Source: an uncultured Flavobacteriaceae bacterium
Lineage (GTDB): Bacteria; Bacteroidota; Bacteroidia; Flavobacteriales; Flavobacteriaceae
Direction of reading: 5' to 3'
Assembly: GCA_943787365.1 (NCBI GenBank)
Contig: CALSMD010000001.1
Location: forward strand, 124,001-188,000
Length of the DNA stretch: 64,000 nucleotides
Shown here: positions 8,413 to 63,647 of the stretch, piece after piece
Layout of the letters: every line of letters begins with the position of its first letter
Numbering within the stretch: the first letter of the stretch is position 1
Position numbers and translations under genes: made by a program
Notes under the pieces: model-generated
What the model saw: the letters and a program-made list of their open reading frames with translations, nothing else
Databases searched by the model: none
Told to the model about the DNA's origin: nothing

Positions 8413-8434
8413 TAGCTTACTTAAATACACAAAC

Positions 8435-9478
8435 TTGGTAAATAAAGATAAATTGATATTTGATAATGTACTAGAGCTGGTTGGAAACACGCCTCTTGTG
8501 AAGTTGAATACTATTTTGTCGGGTTCTCCAGGTACCTTTATTGCTAAATTGGAATGTTTCAATCCGGGACATTCTTCTAAAGACCGTATTGCACTTCATA
8601 TTATTGAAGATGCTGAAAAAAAAGGGATTCTTAAACCAGGCGATACCATTATTGAAACAACTTCTGGAAACACAGGTTTTAGTATTGCGATGGTCAGTAT
8701 TATCAAAGGGTATAAATGTGTATTAGCCGTCAGTTCAAAATCGTCTTTAGATAAAATTGACATGCTCAAGAGTATGGGAGCGAAGGTCTATGTGTGCCCA
8801 GCACACGTAAGTGCCGACGATCCACGTTCGTATTACGAAGTAGCAAAACGTTTGCACAAAGAACTTGAAGGATCGGTCTATATCAACCAATATTTTAATA
8901 GTTTAAATACAGAGGCGCATTACCAATCTACGGGGCCAGAATTATGGCAGCAAACCCAAGGTAAAATCACGCATTTAGTAGCGTGTAGTGGCACAGGTGG
9001 TACCATTTCAGGGGCTGCAAACTATTTAAAAGAACAAAATCCAGACATTAAAATTATAGGGGTGGATGCTTATGGTTCGGTGTTGAAAAAATACCATGAA
9101 ACCAAAGAGTTTGATTCCAATGAAATATATCCCTATCGCATTGAAGGGCTTGGTAAAAACTTGGTTCCTACAGCTACCGACTTTGATTCGATTGACGAGT
9201 TTGTTAAAGTCACGGATGAAGACAGTGCGCATACTGCAAGAGAGTTGGCACAAACGGAAGGCTTGTTTGCAGGCTATACGTCAGGAGCCGTTGTTCAGGC
9301 CGTCAAACAACTCAATCAAAAAGATACTTTTAAATCTACAGACGTTGTTGTTTTAATTTTTCCAGATCACGGATCCAGATACATGAGTAAAGTGTTTAAT
9401 GACCAATGGATGGAAGATCAAGGCTTTTTTGATGCTAAAAATGAGGTGGTTGCTCAAAGTATTGAGTTTATTGAGTAG
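8435..9478 (+). CDS. PLP-dependent cysteine synthase-family enzyme (candidate cysteate synthase)
   Basis: A fold-type-II PLP enzyme of 347 aa without CBS domains. Seen: [10 protein letters not shown] (residues 16-25), PLP-Lys in [23 protein letters not shown] phosphate/substrate loop and [12 protein letters not shown] is the only sensible start; no in-frame ATG precedes the conserved region. It could be ordinary O-acetylserine sulfhydrylase. The proximity of an alpha-oxoamine-synthase-like gene (11045) and a GNAT-type gene (12312) raises the alternative of an L-cysteate synthase feeding sulfonolipid synthesis. Family certain, substrate inferred. Confidence 0.88.
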
Positions 9479-22687: not shown

Positions 22688-22754
22688 ATAACATTACTTT
22701 TCAATTTTTATTAAACCCAGTACACCTACGGTGTGCTATTAAAAGTAATGTTAT
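22688..22754 (+). promoter_or_regulatory. Perfect 14-bp inverted repeat covering the sigma-gene start codon
   Basis: ATAACATTACTTTT (22688-22701) is exactly complementary to AAAAGTAATGTTAT (22741-22754); the right arm includes the first two bases of the ATG at 22753. A second hairpin (AGTACACC-TAC-GGTGTGCT, 22719-22737) sits in the loop. In RNA this would hide the start codon. A protein-binding site is the alternative. Confidence 0.6.
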
Positions 22755-23337
22755 GAAATCTAAATCTATTAGCGATGCCACTCTCGTAAGTCAATACATT
22801 CAAGGTGATGAACCGTCCTTATCGGTGCTCATCAAACGCCACCAACAACGGTTGTACAGTTTTATCTATTCGAAGGTTTACGACCGCGATGTGACTGAGG
22901 ATGTTTTTCAGGATACCTTTATAAAAGTGATTCGTACCCTCAAACGGGGTAATTATAATGAAGAAGGTAAGTTTTTACCTTGGGTGATGCGTATTGCACA
23001 CAATCTCGTGATCGATCATTTCAGAAAAAACAACCGCATGCCGAAGTTTAACAACAGCGGCGATTTTGATATTTTCTCTGTGTTGAGTGATGGGGCTCTA
23101 AATGCCGAAGGTGAATTGGTAAAATCTCAAATTGTTGAAGACATCAGAGCCTTGGTAGAGGAGTTGCCAGAAGAACAAAAAACGGTTCTCGTGATGCGTA
23201 TGTATAACGATATGAGTTTCAAGGAAATCTCCGAAAACACGGGTGTGAGTATCAATACGGCTTTGGGACGGATGCGTTATGCCTTGATCAATCTTCGTAA
23301 ATTAATTGAAAAACACAATATTGTTTTGACAAATTAA
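22753..23337 (+). CDS. ECF-type RNA polymerase sigma factor
   Basis: 194 aa. Region 2 (SVLIKRHQQRLYSFIYSKVYDRDVTEDVFQDTFIKV, residues 24-60, with FLPWVMRIAHNLVIDHFRK) and region 4 helix-turn-helix (FKEISENTGVSINTALGRMRYAL, about 156-178) are clear. No anti-sigma gene adjoins it; a 47-aa conserved-looking gene follows by 65 bases. The leader holds an unusual inverted repeat over the start codon, so translational control is possible. Confidence 0.92.
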   Translation: MKSKSISDATLVSQYIQGDEPSLSVLIKRHQQRLYSFIYSKVYDRDVTEDVFQDTFIKVIRTLKRGNYNEEGKFLPWVMRIAHNLVIDHFRKNNRMPKFNNSGDFDIFSVLSDGALNAEGELVKSQIVEDIRALVEELPEEQKTVLVMRMYNDMSFKEISENTGVSINTALGRMRYALINLRKLIEKHNIVLTN

Positions 23338-23639: not shown

Positions 23640-23666
23640 TTAGTGGGTTGATAAAAACACTTTCAT
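23640..23666 (-). pseudogene. Truncated toxin remnant (8 codons)
   Basis: The antitoxin stop overlaps an ATG (TAATG at 23668-23664) that opens MKVFLSTH and then a stop at 23640. A coupled start at exactly the toxin position followed by an early stop looks like a decayed RelE/ParE-type toxin gene. Too short for homology proof. Confidence 0.4.
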
Positions 23667-23884
23667 TAAGAAATCTTTTTCAAAAAGTCGTTGAATTCAA
23701 CTCTTTTTCCACTGTTTAACTCTTGAATCCCTTTTTCAATTTCTTTTTGCTCGGATACACTTAATTCATTCCAAAAATCAACTTTTTCTTTTTGAATAAA
23801 TTCTGTGATTTTTTTAATGAATTTGTCATTCTCAATGTTGAGAATCATTTTCACTAGCTCTATTTTAGAAGTTTGAATATTCAT
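23666..23884 (-). CDS. Antitoxin-like protein (addiction-module component type), orphan
   Basis: 72 aa: KIELVKMILNIENDKFIKKITEFI, then VDFWNELSVSEQKEIEKGIQ and KRVEFNDFLKKIS. This matches the small helical antitoxin family that normally precedes a RelE/ParE toxin in Bacteroidota. Here the overlapping toxin frame ends after eight codons, so the antitoxin is alone. It lies at the border of an AT-rich accessory stretch. Confidence 0.7.
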   Translation of the reverse strand: MNIQTSKIELVKMILNIENDKFIKKITEFIQKEKVDFWNELSVSEQKEIEKGIQELNSGKRVEFNDFLKKIS

Positions 23885-24053: not shown

Positions 24054-24092
24054 TTCTTTTGCATACTGGGCACGAGCAAAAGATGCTCGCGC
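24054..24092. repeat. Dispersed repeat B, copy 1 (39 bp)
   Basis: From TTCTTTTGCATACTGGGCAC onward this 39-bp segment is identical to 63609-63647. It includes the small hairpin GAGCA-AAAGA-TGCTC. An imperfect hairpin (GGTGTCACGC / GCGTGATGCC) lies just upstream at about 23980-24004. Non-coding, between two minus-strand accessory genes. Confidence 0.8.
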
Positions 24093-24144
24093 GAGCTGGG
24101 GATTAACTTCGTTGAATCTTAGATTTTGTGCGGTAGCGGGTTTT

Positions 24145-24507
24145 TTATTCAAATAATTTGTCAATTATATTTTCAAAAGTAAAAGCTCCATTTAAACCAG
24201 TTGGTTTTGAGCTCGGTTTTCTGAAAACGTAAACATATTTTGAAAAACTATTAGCACCATTTTTAGAAGGAAGATTTATTGTTCCTTTTTTACTAAAATA
24301 AGATTCAATTTCATTTGCATTTTCCATTGTTTCCGCATCAAATGTTTTCCAATATTTTAGTCCTAAAACATTCACTCTGTGTTCTCCTTTTCTTCTTTTA
24401 GTATCATTTGTAATTCCTACATACCAAGAATCTAATCTCGGTTTTTCGGAATTCATTGATTTTGAAAAGTGTTTCGTTATTTCTGATTTTATAGATACTT
24501 TATTCAT
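24145..24507 (-). CDS. GIY-YIG-like small protein
   Basis: 120 aa. SWYVGITNDTKRRKGEHR (residues 27-44) resembles the second half of the GIY-YIG nuclease motif (YVG followed by a basic helix with Arg38/Arg39 and His43). Further on are Glu68 (NEIESYF) and SFSKYVYVFRK. The first GIY strand is not recognisable, so catalysis is uncertain. It starts three bases after the stop of the RuvC-I-like mini-gene, so the two are almost certainly cotranslated. AT-rich, flanked by repeats. Confidence 0.6.
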   Translation of the reverse strand: MNKVSIKSEITKHFSKSMNSEKPRLDSWYVGITNDTKRRKGEHRVNVLGLKYWKTFDAETMENANEIESYFSKKGTINLPSKNGANSFSKYVYVFRKPSSKPTGLNGAFTFENIIDKLFE

Positions 24508-24510
24508 AAT

Positions 24511-24816
24511 TTATTTACTTTTCTTGTTTTGAAGTGTTAAAATTGAAATTGTTCCACCAATTCCAAGATTTAGAAATAATTGCCAAAATTCAATTAAGAT
24601 TATACTCAAAATAAACATAGTTATTGTAATAAATAATAATGATAAAAACTGAAAATTTTCCTTTATTAGTTTTTTAAACTTTCTAACATTTTTCTCTTTT
24701 TTAATAATATTTTTATGACTAAAAATACGACTTCCAAAATCTGTAATTTCATTATTTTCAACTATTGCCCAACCAATTGAGTTTGTTCCTAAATCAAGTC
24801 CTAAAATTTTCTTCAT
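24511..24816 (-). CDS. Mini-protein with Cas9-like RuvC-I motif and membrane segments
   Basis: 101 aa. Residues 1-31 (KILGLDLGTNSIGWAIVENN then ITDFGSRIF) match the RuvC-I strand and following turn of Cas9, including the catalytic-position Asp8. After a Lys-rich stretch (38-53) comes strong hydrophobicity: one TM helix at about 55-77 and a second hydrophobic segment at 78-95, then KKSK. RuvC-II, HNH, RuvC-III and any CRISPR array are absent, so it cannot be a Cas9 nuclease by itself. A GIY-YIG-like gene follows by three bases. It could be a decayed cas9 fusion or a small family of its own. Confidence 0.6.
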   Translation of the reverse strand: MKKILGLDLGTNSIGWAIVENNEITDFGSRIFSHKNIIKKEKNVRKFKKLIKENFQFLSLLFITITMFILSIILIEFWQLFLNLGIGGTISILTLQNKKSK

Positions 24817-24866
24817 TATTCTGGTTTTTAATTTGCTACAACGGGAGACTTCGCCGCTACCGCACG

Positions 24867-25562: not shown

Positions 25563-26210
25563 TTATTTATAATAGGCATCAATCACAGACTTCCGACCAA
25601 TGGTTTTGGTAATGACATCCGCGTCTAAATTCCACCCACGGGCAGGGGAGTACTCACGGCCATACCAAATGATTTGCAAGTGCAAATCGTTCCACAATGC
25701 TTCAGGAAACAAGCGTTTGGCATCTTTTTCCGTTTGCACTACATTTTTACCATTGGTCAGGTTCCAACGGTACATGAGGCGATGAATGTGTGTGTCCACA
25801 GGAAATGCAGGCACGCCAAACGCCTGTGCCATCACCACACTCGCCGTTTTATGACCCACGGCAGGCAAGGCCTCCAAAGCACTAAAACTCTGTGGGACTT
25901 CTCCGTTATGGGATTCTATAATGATTTTTGACAAGCCATAAATCCCTTTACTTTTCATGGGGGACAATCCACAAGGCCGTATAATAGCTTTGATCTCTTC
26001 CACCGTTAGTTTCACCATGTCATAGGGGTTGTCGGCTTTGGCAAATAGAAGGGGCGTAATCTTATTCACACGCACATCTGTACATTGTGCCGATAGCAAT
26101 ACTGCAATCAAAAGGGTGTAGGGATCTTTATGGTCTAAGGGAATCGGGATTTCAGGATAAAAATCTTTTAAGGTTTTTATAACAAAATTTACCTTCTCAG
26201 TTTTTGTCAT
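25563..26210 (-). CDS. nth: Endonuclease III, lacking the iron-sulfur cluster cysteines
   Basis: DNA glycosylase/AP lyase for oxidised pyrimidines. Start taken at the ATG giving MTKTEKVNFV (215 aa); the longer frame would run through the bcp promoter and start codon. HhH-GPD hallmarks: LPAVGHKTASVV with catalytic Lys121 and VDTHIHR with Asp139. The C-terminus (WYGREYSPARGWNLDADVI) has no Cys, so the four-Cys [4Fe-4S] loop of E. coli Nth is absent. Shares interlocked divergent promoters with bcp. Confidence 0.92.
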   Translation of the reverse strand: MTKTEKVNFVIKTLKDFYPEIPIPLDHKDPYTLLIAVLLSAQCTDVRVNKITPLLFAKADNPYDMVKLTVEEIKAIIRPCGLSPMKSKGIYGLSKIIIESHNGEVPQSFSALEALPAVGHKTASVVMAQAFGVPAFPVDTHIHRLMYRWNLTNGKNVVQTEKDAKRLFPEALWNDLHLQIIWYGREYSPARGWNLDADVITKTIGRKSVIDAYYK

Positions 26211-26215
26211 TCGTT

Positions 26216-26241
26216 TATCTTTGTTGTGATAACCAAAGATA
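26216..26241. promoter_or_regulatory. Interlocked divergent promoters of nth and bcp
   Basis: TATCTTTG on the plus strand (26216-26223) points to bcp, and its reverse complement CAAAGATA (26234-26241) gives TATCTTTG pointing to nth; the boxes face each other across ten bases. For nth a -33 TTTG (minus strand, 26263-26260) lies 18 bases away. Each box is 23-24 bases before its ATG. Confidence 0.6.
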
Positions 26242-26247
26242 CTAATT

Positions 26248-26700
26248 ATGACAACATTACAAATAGGCGATGCCGCTCCAAATTTTAAATCCTTAGACGA
26301 GGCGGGAAACACCATTTCTTTAGCAGATTACAAAGGAAAAAAACTCGTGTTGTTTTTCTACCCGAAAGCCAGCACTCCTGGATGCACTGTTGAAGCTTGT
26401 AATTTAAGTGACAATTACAGTCGTTTTACAGCCCAAGGTTATGATGTTCTCGGTGTGAGTGCCGACAGCGCCAAACGCCAGTCCAACTTCAAAGAGAAAT
26501 ATGGATTTCCCTATCCTTTGTTAGCGGATGAAGACAAAACAGTCATCAACGCCTTTGGTGTTTGGGGTCCTAAAAAATTCATGGGCAAAGAATACGACGG
26601 CATTCACCGAACTACTTTTGTCATTGACGAAGCAGGTGTGATTGAAGACATCATTCTCAAAGTTAAAACCAAAGAACATACAGGGCAGATTTTAAAATAA
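26248..26700 (+). CDS. bcp: Thioredoxin-dependent thiol peroxidase (BCP/PrxQ)
   Basis: Reduces hydroperoxides. 150 aa, peroxiredoxin fold: FFYPKASTPGCTVEACNL holds the peroxidatic Cys46 and resolving Cys51, the PrxQ spacing. GVSADSAKRQSNFKEKYGFPYPLLADE and the C-terminal HTGQILK are typical. Divergent from nth with only 37 bases between starts, suggesting joint expression under oxidative damage. Confidence 0.95.
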   Translation: MTTLQIGDAAPNFKSLDEAGNTISLADYKGKKLVLFFYPKASTPGCTVEACNLSDNYSRFTAQGYDVLGVSADSAKRQSNFKEKYGFPYPLLADEDKTVINAFGVWGPKKFMGKEYDGIHRTTFVIDEAGVIEDIILKVKTKEHTGQILK

Positions 26701-41876: not shown

Positions 41877-41908
41877 AAGTCGGGAAATCGAAGATTCGAC
41901 GAAGTCAA
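41877..41908. repeat. 32-bp repeat identical to 62874-62905
   Basis: Begins AAGTCGGGAAATCGAAGATT. Part of it (GATTCGACGAAGTCAAACTTT) is repeated in tandem at once (41927-41946). A diverged relative (GCTAAGTTAGGAAATTGA) occurs at 23594-23611. The 41655-42217 gap otherwise holds only these repeats; no gene seen. Confidence 0.8.
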
Positions 41909-62873: not shown

Positions 62874-62905
62874 AAGTCGGGAAATCGAAGATTCGACGAA
62901 GTCAA
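62874..62905. repeat. 32-bp repeat identical to 41877-41908
   Basis: Same orientation as the copy near oxyR; followed immediately by repeat A copy 2. Confidence 0.8.
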
Positions 62906-63608: not shown

Positions 63609-63647
63609 TTCTTTTGCATACTGGGCACGAGCAAAAGATGCTCGCGC
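63609..63647. repeat. Dispersed repeat B, copy 2 (39 bp)
   Basis: Identical to 24054-24092 over 39 bp. Upstream flank of the lipoprotein gene. Confidence 0.8.

Follow-up and report, generated by a model that had tools for sequence, protein, structure and literature searches.

The window, by which we mean the whole 64,000-nucleotide stretch of flavobacterial DNA analysed here, encodes a 101-aa protein that opens like the N-terminus of Cas9 and ends in a membrane hairpin. It belongs to a family of 14 full-length members, the window gene and 13 relatives, which we call RuvC-TM. The fused gene is conserved, its genomic surroundings differ between loci but usually include defence-like genes, and it is found in genomes with or without Cas9. 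RuvC-TM is a conserved, spreading gene family that tends to lie near anti-virus defence genes. We consider it possible, at somewhat less than an even chance, that the N-terminus of Cas9 was exapted, probably once, into a free-standing mobile membrane module of immunity or counter-immunity, which would use its RuvC-I sheet at the inner membrane for sensing or docking rather than for cutting, and would be inserted beside many unrelated defence systems. We rate the architecture as categorically new. No description of a membrane-anchored Cas9 fragment was recognised in the literature, as judged from titles and the openings of abstracts, and neither the protein as a whole nor its membrane part had a convincing model in NCBIfam, PADLOC or PHROGs for the 14 members, or in Pfam for the window member.

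The RuvC-TM gene of the window lies on the minus strand at 24511..24816, and its product can be divided into a Cas9 RuvC-I start, a basic linker and a membrane hairpin. Codons 1-33 (24718..24816, minus strand) encode the RuvC-I segment with Asp8, for which a three-stranded sheet is predicted; the protein begins MKKILGLDLGTNSIGWAIVENN, and its RuvC-I motif, containing Asp8, is LGLDLGTNSIGWA. The basic linker with a net charge of +7 follows (codons 34-58, 24643..24717, minus strand), then a strongly hydrophobic first membrane helix (codons 59-75, 24592..24642, minus strand, mean hydropathy 2.75) and a weaker second one (codons 79-95, 24532..24582, minus strand, hydropathy 1.46). A sequence-only reading of this DNA had seen a 101-aa frame that opens with a Cas9 RuvC-I motif and runs into one or two membrane helices, and both points hold. 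Indeed, residues 4-45 match the NCBIfam Cas9 model TIGR01865 with an E value of 7.9e-11, and the PADLOC Cas9 models match with E values down to 1.2e-11; the TIGR01865 score of 40.9 bits does not reach the curated cut-off of 100 bits. A chance resemblance to Cas9 RuvC-I is ruled out by the TIGR01865 E value. Pfam returned sub-threshold matches only, to RuvX (E 2e-4) and DUF485 (E 0.064).

All 14 carriers belong, by their listed kinship, to the bacterial family of the window, where the search effort for relatives was also greatest, and 11 of the 13 relatives fall in one genus, that of genome G246, which is probably Flavobacterium. A scan of genome contigs, in which the best 80 of at least 461 confirmed stretches were considered, found the fused form in Tamlana fucoidanivorans (L031), as a 114-aa protein that aligns over residues 1-98. 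Among 395 genomes searched across the order there was one further member, in G246 (L002); a profile search within the window's family (397 genomes) added G689 (L112) and recovered Tamlana once more, as G541; and a profile search of 299 genomes in the genus of G246 yielded ten additional members (L153-L162). No extra full-length member was found in 395 genomes of the phylum or in 197 genomes of another family of the same order, presumably Weeksellaceae; the genome samples of these searches overlap. The fused form therefore does occur in other genomes, no read-through into a full-length cas9 was seen in the 14 relatives, and the membrane-tethered RuvC-I, suggested earlier as a separate family, has turned out to be one.

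The fetched Cas9 matches outside the family include full-length cas9; those in short frames are split or truncated cas9 genes or contig ends, except for fusions with LysS- and ATPase-like sequences, and matches that were not fetched were judged by frame length alone. One of these fusions, at L214:5569-7362(-) in G120, is a 598-codon ORF, named lysyl-tRNA-synthetase-like by eye, in which the start of a Cas9 RuvC-I, KKILGLDLGTNSIGYALIEDDKVVDMGARVFPDGI, lies in frame close to the C-terminus, with about 65 more residues behind it. The others, L215 and L216 (G323 and G389, one genus), are 494-codon ORFs in which a Cas9 N-terminus of about 170 aa runs in frame into a sequence that, by eye, looks like a P-type metal ATPase in its C-terminal half.

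The 14 proteins are 93-121 aa long, counted from aligned starts, and share the invariant residues M1, L7, D8, G10, S13, I14, G15, W16, G28, L60, W78 and N83; the Arg after the conserved Gly28 is substituted in many of them. W78 and N83 make up a family motif (W-x-x-x-x-N) that covers the loop and the start of the second membrane helix. TIGR01865 is matched by all 14 members at E up to 0.01, and the PADLOC Cas9 models at E up to 0.001; no RuvC-TM gene in the 14 genomes exceeds the TIGR01865 cut-off, and the Cas9 model aligns to these genes solely within its first ~60 positions. Weaker matches were to a RuvC-like resolvase family of PHROGs (11 of 14 members, best E 3.5e-5) and to RuvC (three of 14, best E 4e-5). 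The dN/dS ratio is 0.21-0.59 over 15 pairs in the AbiEii-linked group; two further pairs give 0.52 and 0.20. Synonymous change is low in the first 33 codons (pS 0.084, versus 0.214 in the membrane part), so that constraint there may act on the DNA too. A special conservation of the DNA start was rejected, as the aligned 5' regions give shared coding sequence and A/T-rich leaders only.

The membrane part is also homologous across the members. A hairpin model made from the C-termini of ten of them (L153-L162) was tested on the other four C-termini among 2,223 ORFs of the fetched DNA, and the four held-out sequences matched with E values of 5e-8, 2e-7, 3e-7 and 6e-4; the best unrelated ORF (E 0.023) ranked below all four, and the top score in the test came from an extended copy of the training member L162 that had leaked into the ORF set. 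Across the family the second membrane helix is moderately hydrophobic (0.80-1.75). The net charge in the 14 members is +4 to +13 in the linker, -1 to +1 in the inter-helix loop and 0 to +3 in the tail, and because of this bias both ends of RuvC-TM are predicted to face the cytoplasm.

AlphaFold2, run on the 14-row alignment, predicted a three-stranded sheet upon a helical hairpin (strands 3-9, 13-20 and 23-31; helices 34-73 and 75-100) with a mean pLDDT of 86 and a pTM of 0.48. In a Foldseek search against the PDB, C. jejuni Cas9 came first, as a weak match (E 0.008, query TM 0.34). Many of the next matches were kinases, phosphatases and actin-like proteins of the ASKHA type, which have the same sheet; no PDB entry matched the model at E up to 0.001. 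Since the sheet is shared with Cas9 and with these proteins, the model is read as a RuvC-I sheet plus a helix predicted to run into the membrane.

The sequence matches show that the first ~33 residues of RuvC-TM, the RuvC-I strand with its Asp, descend from the Cas9 N-terminus. In the relative L002, the linker aligns with the Arg-rich part of Cas9 that we take to be its bridge helix; the basic linker of the window protein is shorter. RuvC-TM shares with the Cas9 of Bacteroidota the first ~33-45 residues, including the catalytic Asp; unlike Cas9, its 14 members of 93-121 aa are without the recognition (REC) lobes, HNH, RuvC-II, RuvC-III and the PAM-interacting parts, and possess a membrane hairpin. 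Because RuvC-II, RuvC-III and HNH are absent from the sequence, a Cas9-like nuclease activity can be excluded for the RuvC-TM protein alone.

All 14 genes stand outside any cas9 gene, and none was at a CRISPR locus in the stretches read. In the window's own genome (2.30 Mb, 88.8% complete), the RuvC-TM gene is the sole match to the Cas9 model, and the 20 direct-repeat families listed for the window include no CRISPR-like array, in agreement with what had been noted before. A full-length Cas9 above the curated cut-off is present in six of the 14 carrier genomes and absent from the other eight, which, by count alone, gives no apparent link between RuvC-TM and Cas9; the cas9 background count in the genus of G246 is an undercount, because the profile search did not list the Cas9 of G246 itself. 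In the four pairs compared, out of six carriers, the own-genome Cas9 is not the closest to the RuvC-TM segment. An N-terminal tree, weak as it spans at most 60 residues, places the 14 members inside a clade of 18 of the 166 sequences, where they are not strictly monophyletic.

In the window, a 120-aa, weakly GIY-YIG-like gene lies 3 nt downstream of the RuvC-TM gene (24145..24507, minus strand). The spacing of three bases is as described in the sequence-only reading, but the likeness is weak: Pfam GIY-YIG (PF01541) matches with E 0.038 and 14.7 bits, below its cut-off of 22.6, and PADLOC gave no match. The pair had been regarded as a unit, which is not supported, as this neighbour is present at one of the 14 RuvC-TM loci. 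Three relatives of the GIY-YIG-like gene were found among 288 other genomes of the family, none adjoining a RuvC-TM gene within ~1.5 kb on each side, and a search of plasmid and phage records (E up to 0.01) gave none. An obligate GIY-YIG partner of RuvC-TM is therefore ruled out by its occurrence at a single locus and by relatives standing apart from RuvC-TM. Y29, R39, H43 and E68 are invariant across the four GIY-YIG-like sequences, with no GIY strand visible; GIY-YIG nucleases have a catalytic Tyr, Arg and Glu. The predicted model of this protein (pLDDT 57) is too poor to use.

Both genes are bracketed by an inverted repeat, GTGCGGTAGCGG, with its left copy at 24128..24139 (plus strand) and its right copy at 24854..24865 (minus strand); 0.02 occurrences are expected in the window, which confirms the repeat flanks reported earlier. 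Nearby is a hairpin-forming repeat, CTGGGCACGAGCAAAAGATGCTCGCGC (24066..24092, plus strand), with another copy at 63621-63647 of the window. With up to 3 mismatches allowed, the own genome contains six copies, and the five on the plus strand adjoin small minus-strand accessory ORFs; this looks like cassette exchange or a cassette system. A 72-aa ORF (23666-23884, minus strand) adjoins the cassette and has sub-threshold Pfam and NCBIfam matches only. Elsewhere in the window, an identical 32-nt direct repeat occurs at 41877-41908 and 62874-62905, 21 kb apart. A sigma-factor-like gene (22753-23337) on one side and an Nth-like gene (25563-26315) on the other, both named by eye, flank the pair. The genes around the window locus are housekeeping genes only, and no AbiEi/AbiEii match was found among the window neighbours that were run. 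Across the family, most members have defence-like neighbours, and many lie on apparent integrative elements.

The partners of RuvC-TM vary, and include AbiEii-like, FRG, UPF0489-like, DUF6994 and DUF6904 genes; some copies are without a close partner. Six loci (L189, L190, L191, L193, L195 and L198) have a common tail, in which a 163-aa protein, a phosphoesterase-like protein, a 329-aa protein and an AbiEii-like protein of 254 aa are followed by RuvC-TM, starting 6 or 14 nt after the AbiEii-like gene. The 163-aa protein has a shorter reading in L191 and is absent from the ORFs listed for L195; the phosphoesterase-like gene matches PDC-S10 of PADLOC in its L190 copy; the 329-aa protein has no family match; and the AbiEii-like protein falls just below the Pfam cut-off (E 2.5e-4). 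As regards AbiE toxin-antitoxin systems, RuvC-TM at these six loci forms an apparent transcription unit with the AbiEii-like gene, whereas the RuvC-TM protein has no match of its own to AbiEi or AbiEii. Upstream of the tail lie type I restriction genes in L190 and L198, type IIG restriction in L195, type IIG restriction with a dCTPase-like protein in L189, a PDC-S02 nuclease with a helicase in L191, and, in L193, type IIG restriction together with a SIR2 protein that is related to ThsA models. In L195 (the same gene as L160), the AbiEii-like gene at 8419-9183(-) is broken into two ORFs (77 and 123-124 aa) beside an intact RuvC-TM gene; an assembly error is possible there.

At L192, PDC-M04A/B genes lie upstream of RuvC-TM and a UPF0489-like gene (sub-threshold) 8 nt downstream. 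The same pair with the same 8-nt gap recurs in L196, which is 90% identical to L192 from -164 to +1127; the DNA downstream of the two is related, and that upstream is not. No defence gene was recognised in L196 by inspection of its ORFs. RuvC-TM follows an AbiEi/AbiEii pair in L197. In L151 (Tamlana), some genes match the LmuB and PDC-M68 models, RuvC-TM is directly followed by an FRG gene, and a further AbiEii is present; in L150, DUF6994 lies downstream of RuvC-TM, with PDC-M45-like genes in the vicinity; in L194, DUF6904 lies upstream, and a protein farther away matches a pAgo model; and in L149 a Fic gene lies about 7.4 kb away. PADLOC-matching neighbours are present in the fetched stretch at 12 of the 14 loci, or 10 of 14 leaving out L149 and L194, a count that is not unbiased, since the 30 neighbour proteins (21 of which matched) were hand-picked. 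As a control, two of seven housekeeping proteins beside the window gene (UvrA and Nth) also matched; for both reasons a PADLOC match does not by itself establish defence. PADLOC matches were obtained for the FRG gene and for the AbiEii of L162, and none for the immediate AbiEii-like, UPF0489-like, DUF6994 and DUF6904 partners.

Judging from the genes around it, RuvC-TM is apparently often carried on integrative elements. There are at least two apparent kinds. One has topB and DUF4099/DUF3945 genes (L190 by family tests; L191, L193 and L195 by their ORFs), and the other a DUF6943 gene (L194 by family tests; L189, L192, L196 and L197 by their ORFs). A tyrosine recombinase is confirmed in L192; by eye, we also recognised a recombinase next to L112/L149 and, in L151, transfer genes. 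Downstream of RuvC-TM, a G+C-richer stretch of non-coding DNA is conserved between L194:6891-7980 and L190:8242-8430, on two apparent element types, with about 70% identity over ~200 nt. An Rfam search of five loci found no known RNA in it, the sole match being a tRNA elsewhere in L190.

We tentatively propose, short of calling it probable, that the exapted Cas9 fragment belongs to mobile defence cargo, in which it acts as a membrane sensor or as an accessory to an effector. In this mechanism, the cytoplasmic RuvC-I sheet would dock or sense nucleic acid, metal or a partner while seated on an oligomeric membrane hairpin, and the hairpin would perturb or mark the inner membrane during infection or element conflict. 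RuvC-TM may then be a self-contained defence accessory that is inserted next to many different systems. This reading is favoured for two reasons: First, most of the invariant residues lie at the cytoplasmic RuvC-I strand and at the Trp-Asn motif of the membrane hairpin. Second, RuvC-TM keeps its form beside unrelated partners. A small-membrane-protein route to immunity is exemplified by Csx28, which is reported to be a membrane pore aiding Cas13b (PMC12669027). The likeness goes by description and is no more than a functional analogy to the mechanism proposed here: Csx28 assists a CRISPR effector, whereas RuvC-TM stands away from CRISPR loci in the stretches read.

The main rival, itself unlikely, is that RuvC-TM is a Cas-derived anti-CRISPR on mobile elements. 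The RuvC-I mimic would bind folding intermediates of Cas9 or guide RNA, or compete with the native N-terminus, and the complex would be held at the membrane, so that the element survives in type II hosts. The Cas9-derived sequence, the many copies on apparent integrative elements and the frequency of Cas9 matches in the genus with most carriers are consistent with this. There is also a precedent in solitary Cas-derived inhibitors, namely AcrIB3, AcrIB4 and AcrVIA2, which are reported to come from Cas5, Cas8b and Cas3, AcrIB3 mimicking Cas5 (PMC13131331); RuvC-TM differs in joining a Cas9 N-terminus to a membrane anchor. Likewise, a RuvC-inactivated phage Cas9 has been proposed to be an anti-CRISPR (PMC12669027). 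However, the carriers show no obvious enrichment in Cas9 (6 of 14), the segment was not closest to the own-genome Cas9 in the four of six cases compared, and the neighbours look defence-like. Moreover, an external RuvC-I strand would have to compete with the intramolecular one. The fused form was also not found in phage records or among the inspected viral-contig matches: tblastn on plasmid and phage records gave no match covering 80% of the query, and two scans of viral contigs gave 9 and 5 loci, all five on contigs already among the nine, of which three carry long Cas9 frames and the other six are without the RuvC-I pattern.

It is rather doubtful that RuvC-TM is the antitoxin, immunity or localisation partner of the adjoining gene. 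The tight spacing, with gaps of 3 nt at the window locus, 6 or 14 nt at the six AbiEii-like loci and 8 nt at the two UPF0489-like loci, points that way, as does the UPF0489-like pair, which has remained 90% identical between L192 and L196 despite differing upstream flanks; however, the partner families differ, some copies are without a close partner, and RuvC-TM is intact where its AbiEii-like partner is split. We see slightly less chance still for a guard or bait, in which the Cas9-imitating RuvC-I segment would be bound by phage anti-Cas9 proteins and thereby trigger a membrane effector. The best conserved cytoplasmic part is indeed the Cas9-like segment, defence-like genes are often near, and no Cas9 would be needed in the cell, which fits the eight of 14 genomes without one above the cut-off. 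A bait, however, should retain the surface residues of Cas9, while the Arg after Gly28 is replaced in many members and the REC and HNH surfaces are absent. Finally, a decaying cas9 5' end joined by chance to a membrane ORF, an option in the sequence-only reading, recalls the chance-like Cas9 N-terminus joins in L214 and L215/L216, but was rejected as very improbable in view of 14 full-length members in which the fused form is conserved, the membrane part is homologous, residues are invariant and dN/dS stays below 1.

RuvC-TM genes would probably go unnamed in annotation pipelines, since their scores do not reach the curated Cas9 cut-off. They are small, directly testable in laboratory strains and in many cases close to defence-like genes. 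If our proposal of an exapted membrane module is true, a CRISPR effector has lost all but its first catalytic strand and become a membrane protein, which raises the question of what use a RuvC-I strand and its invariant Asp can be on their own, once the rest of the active site is gone.
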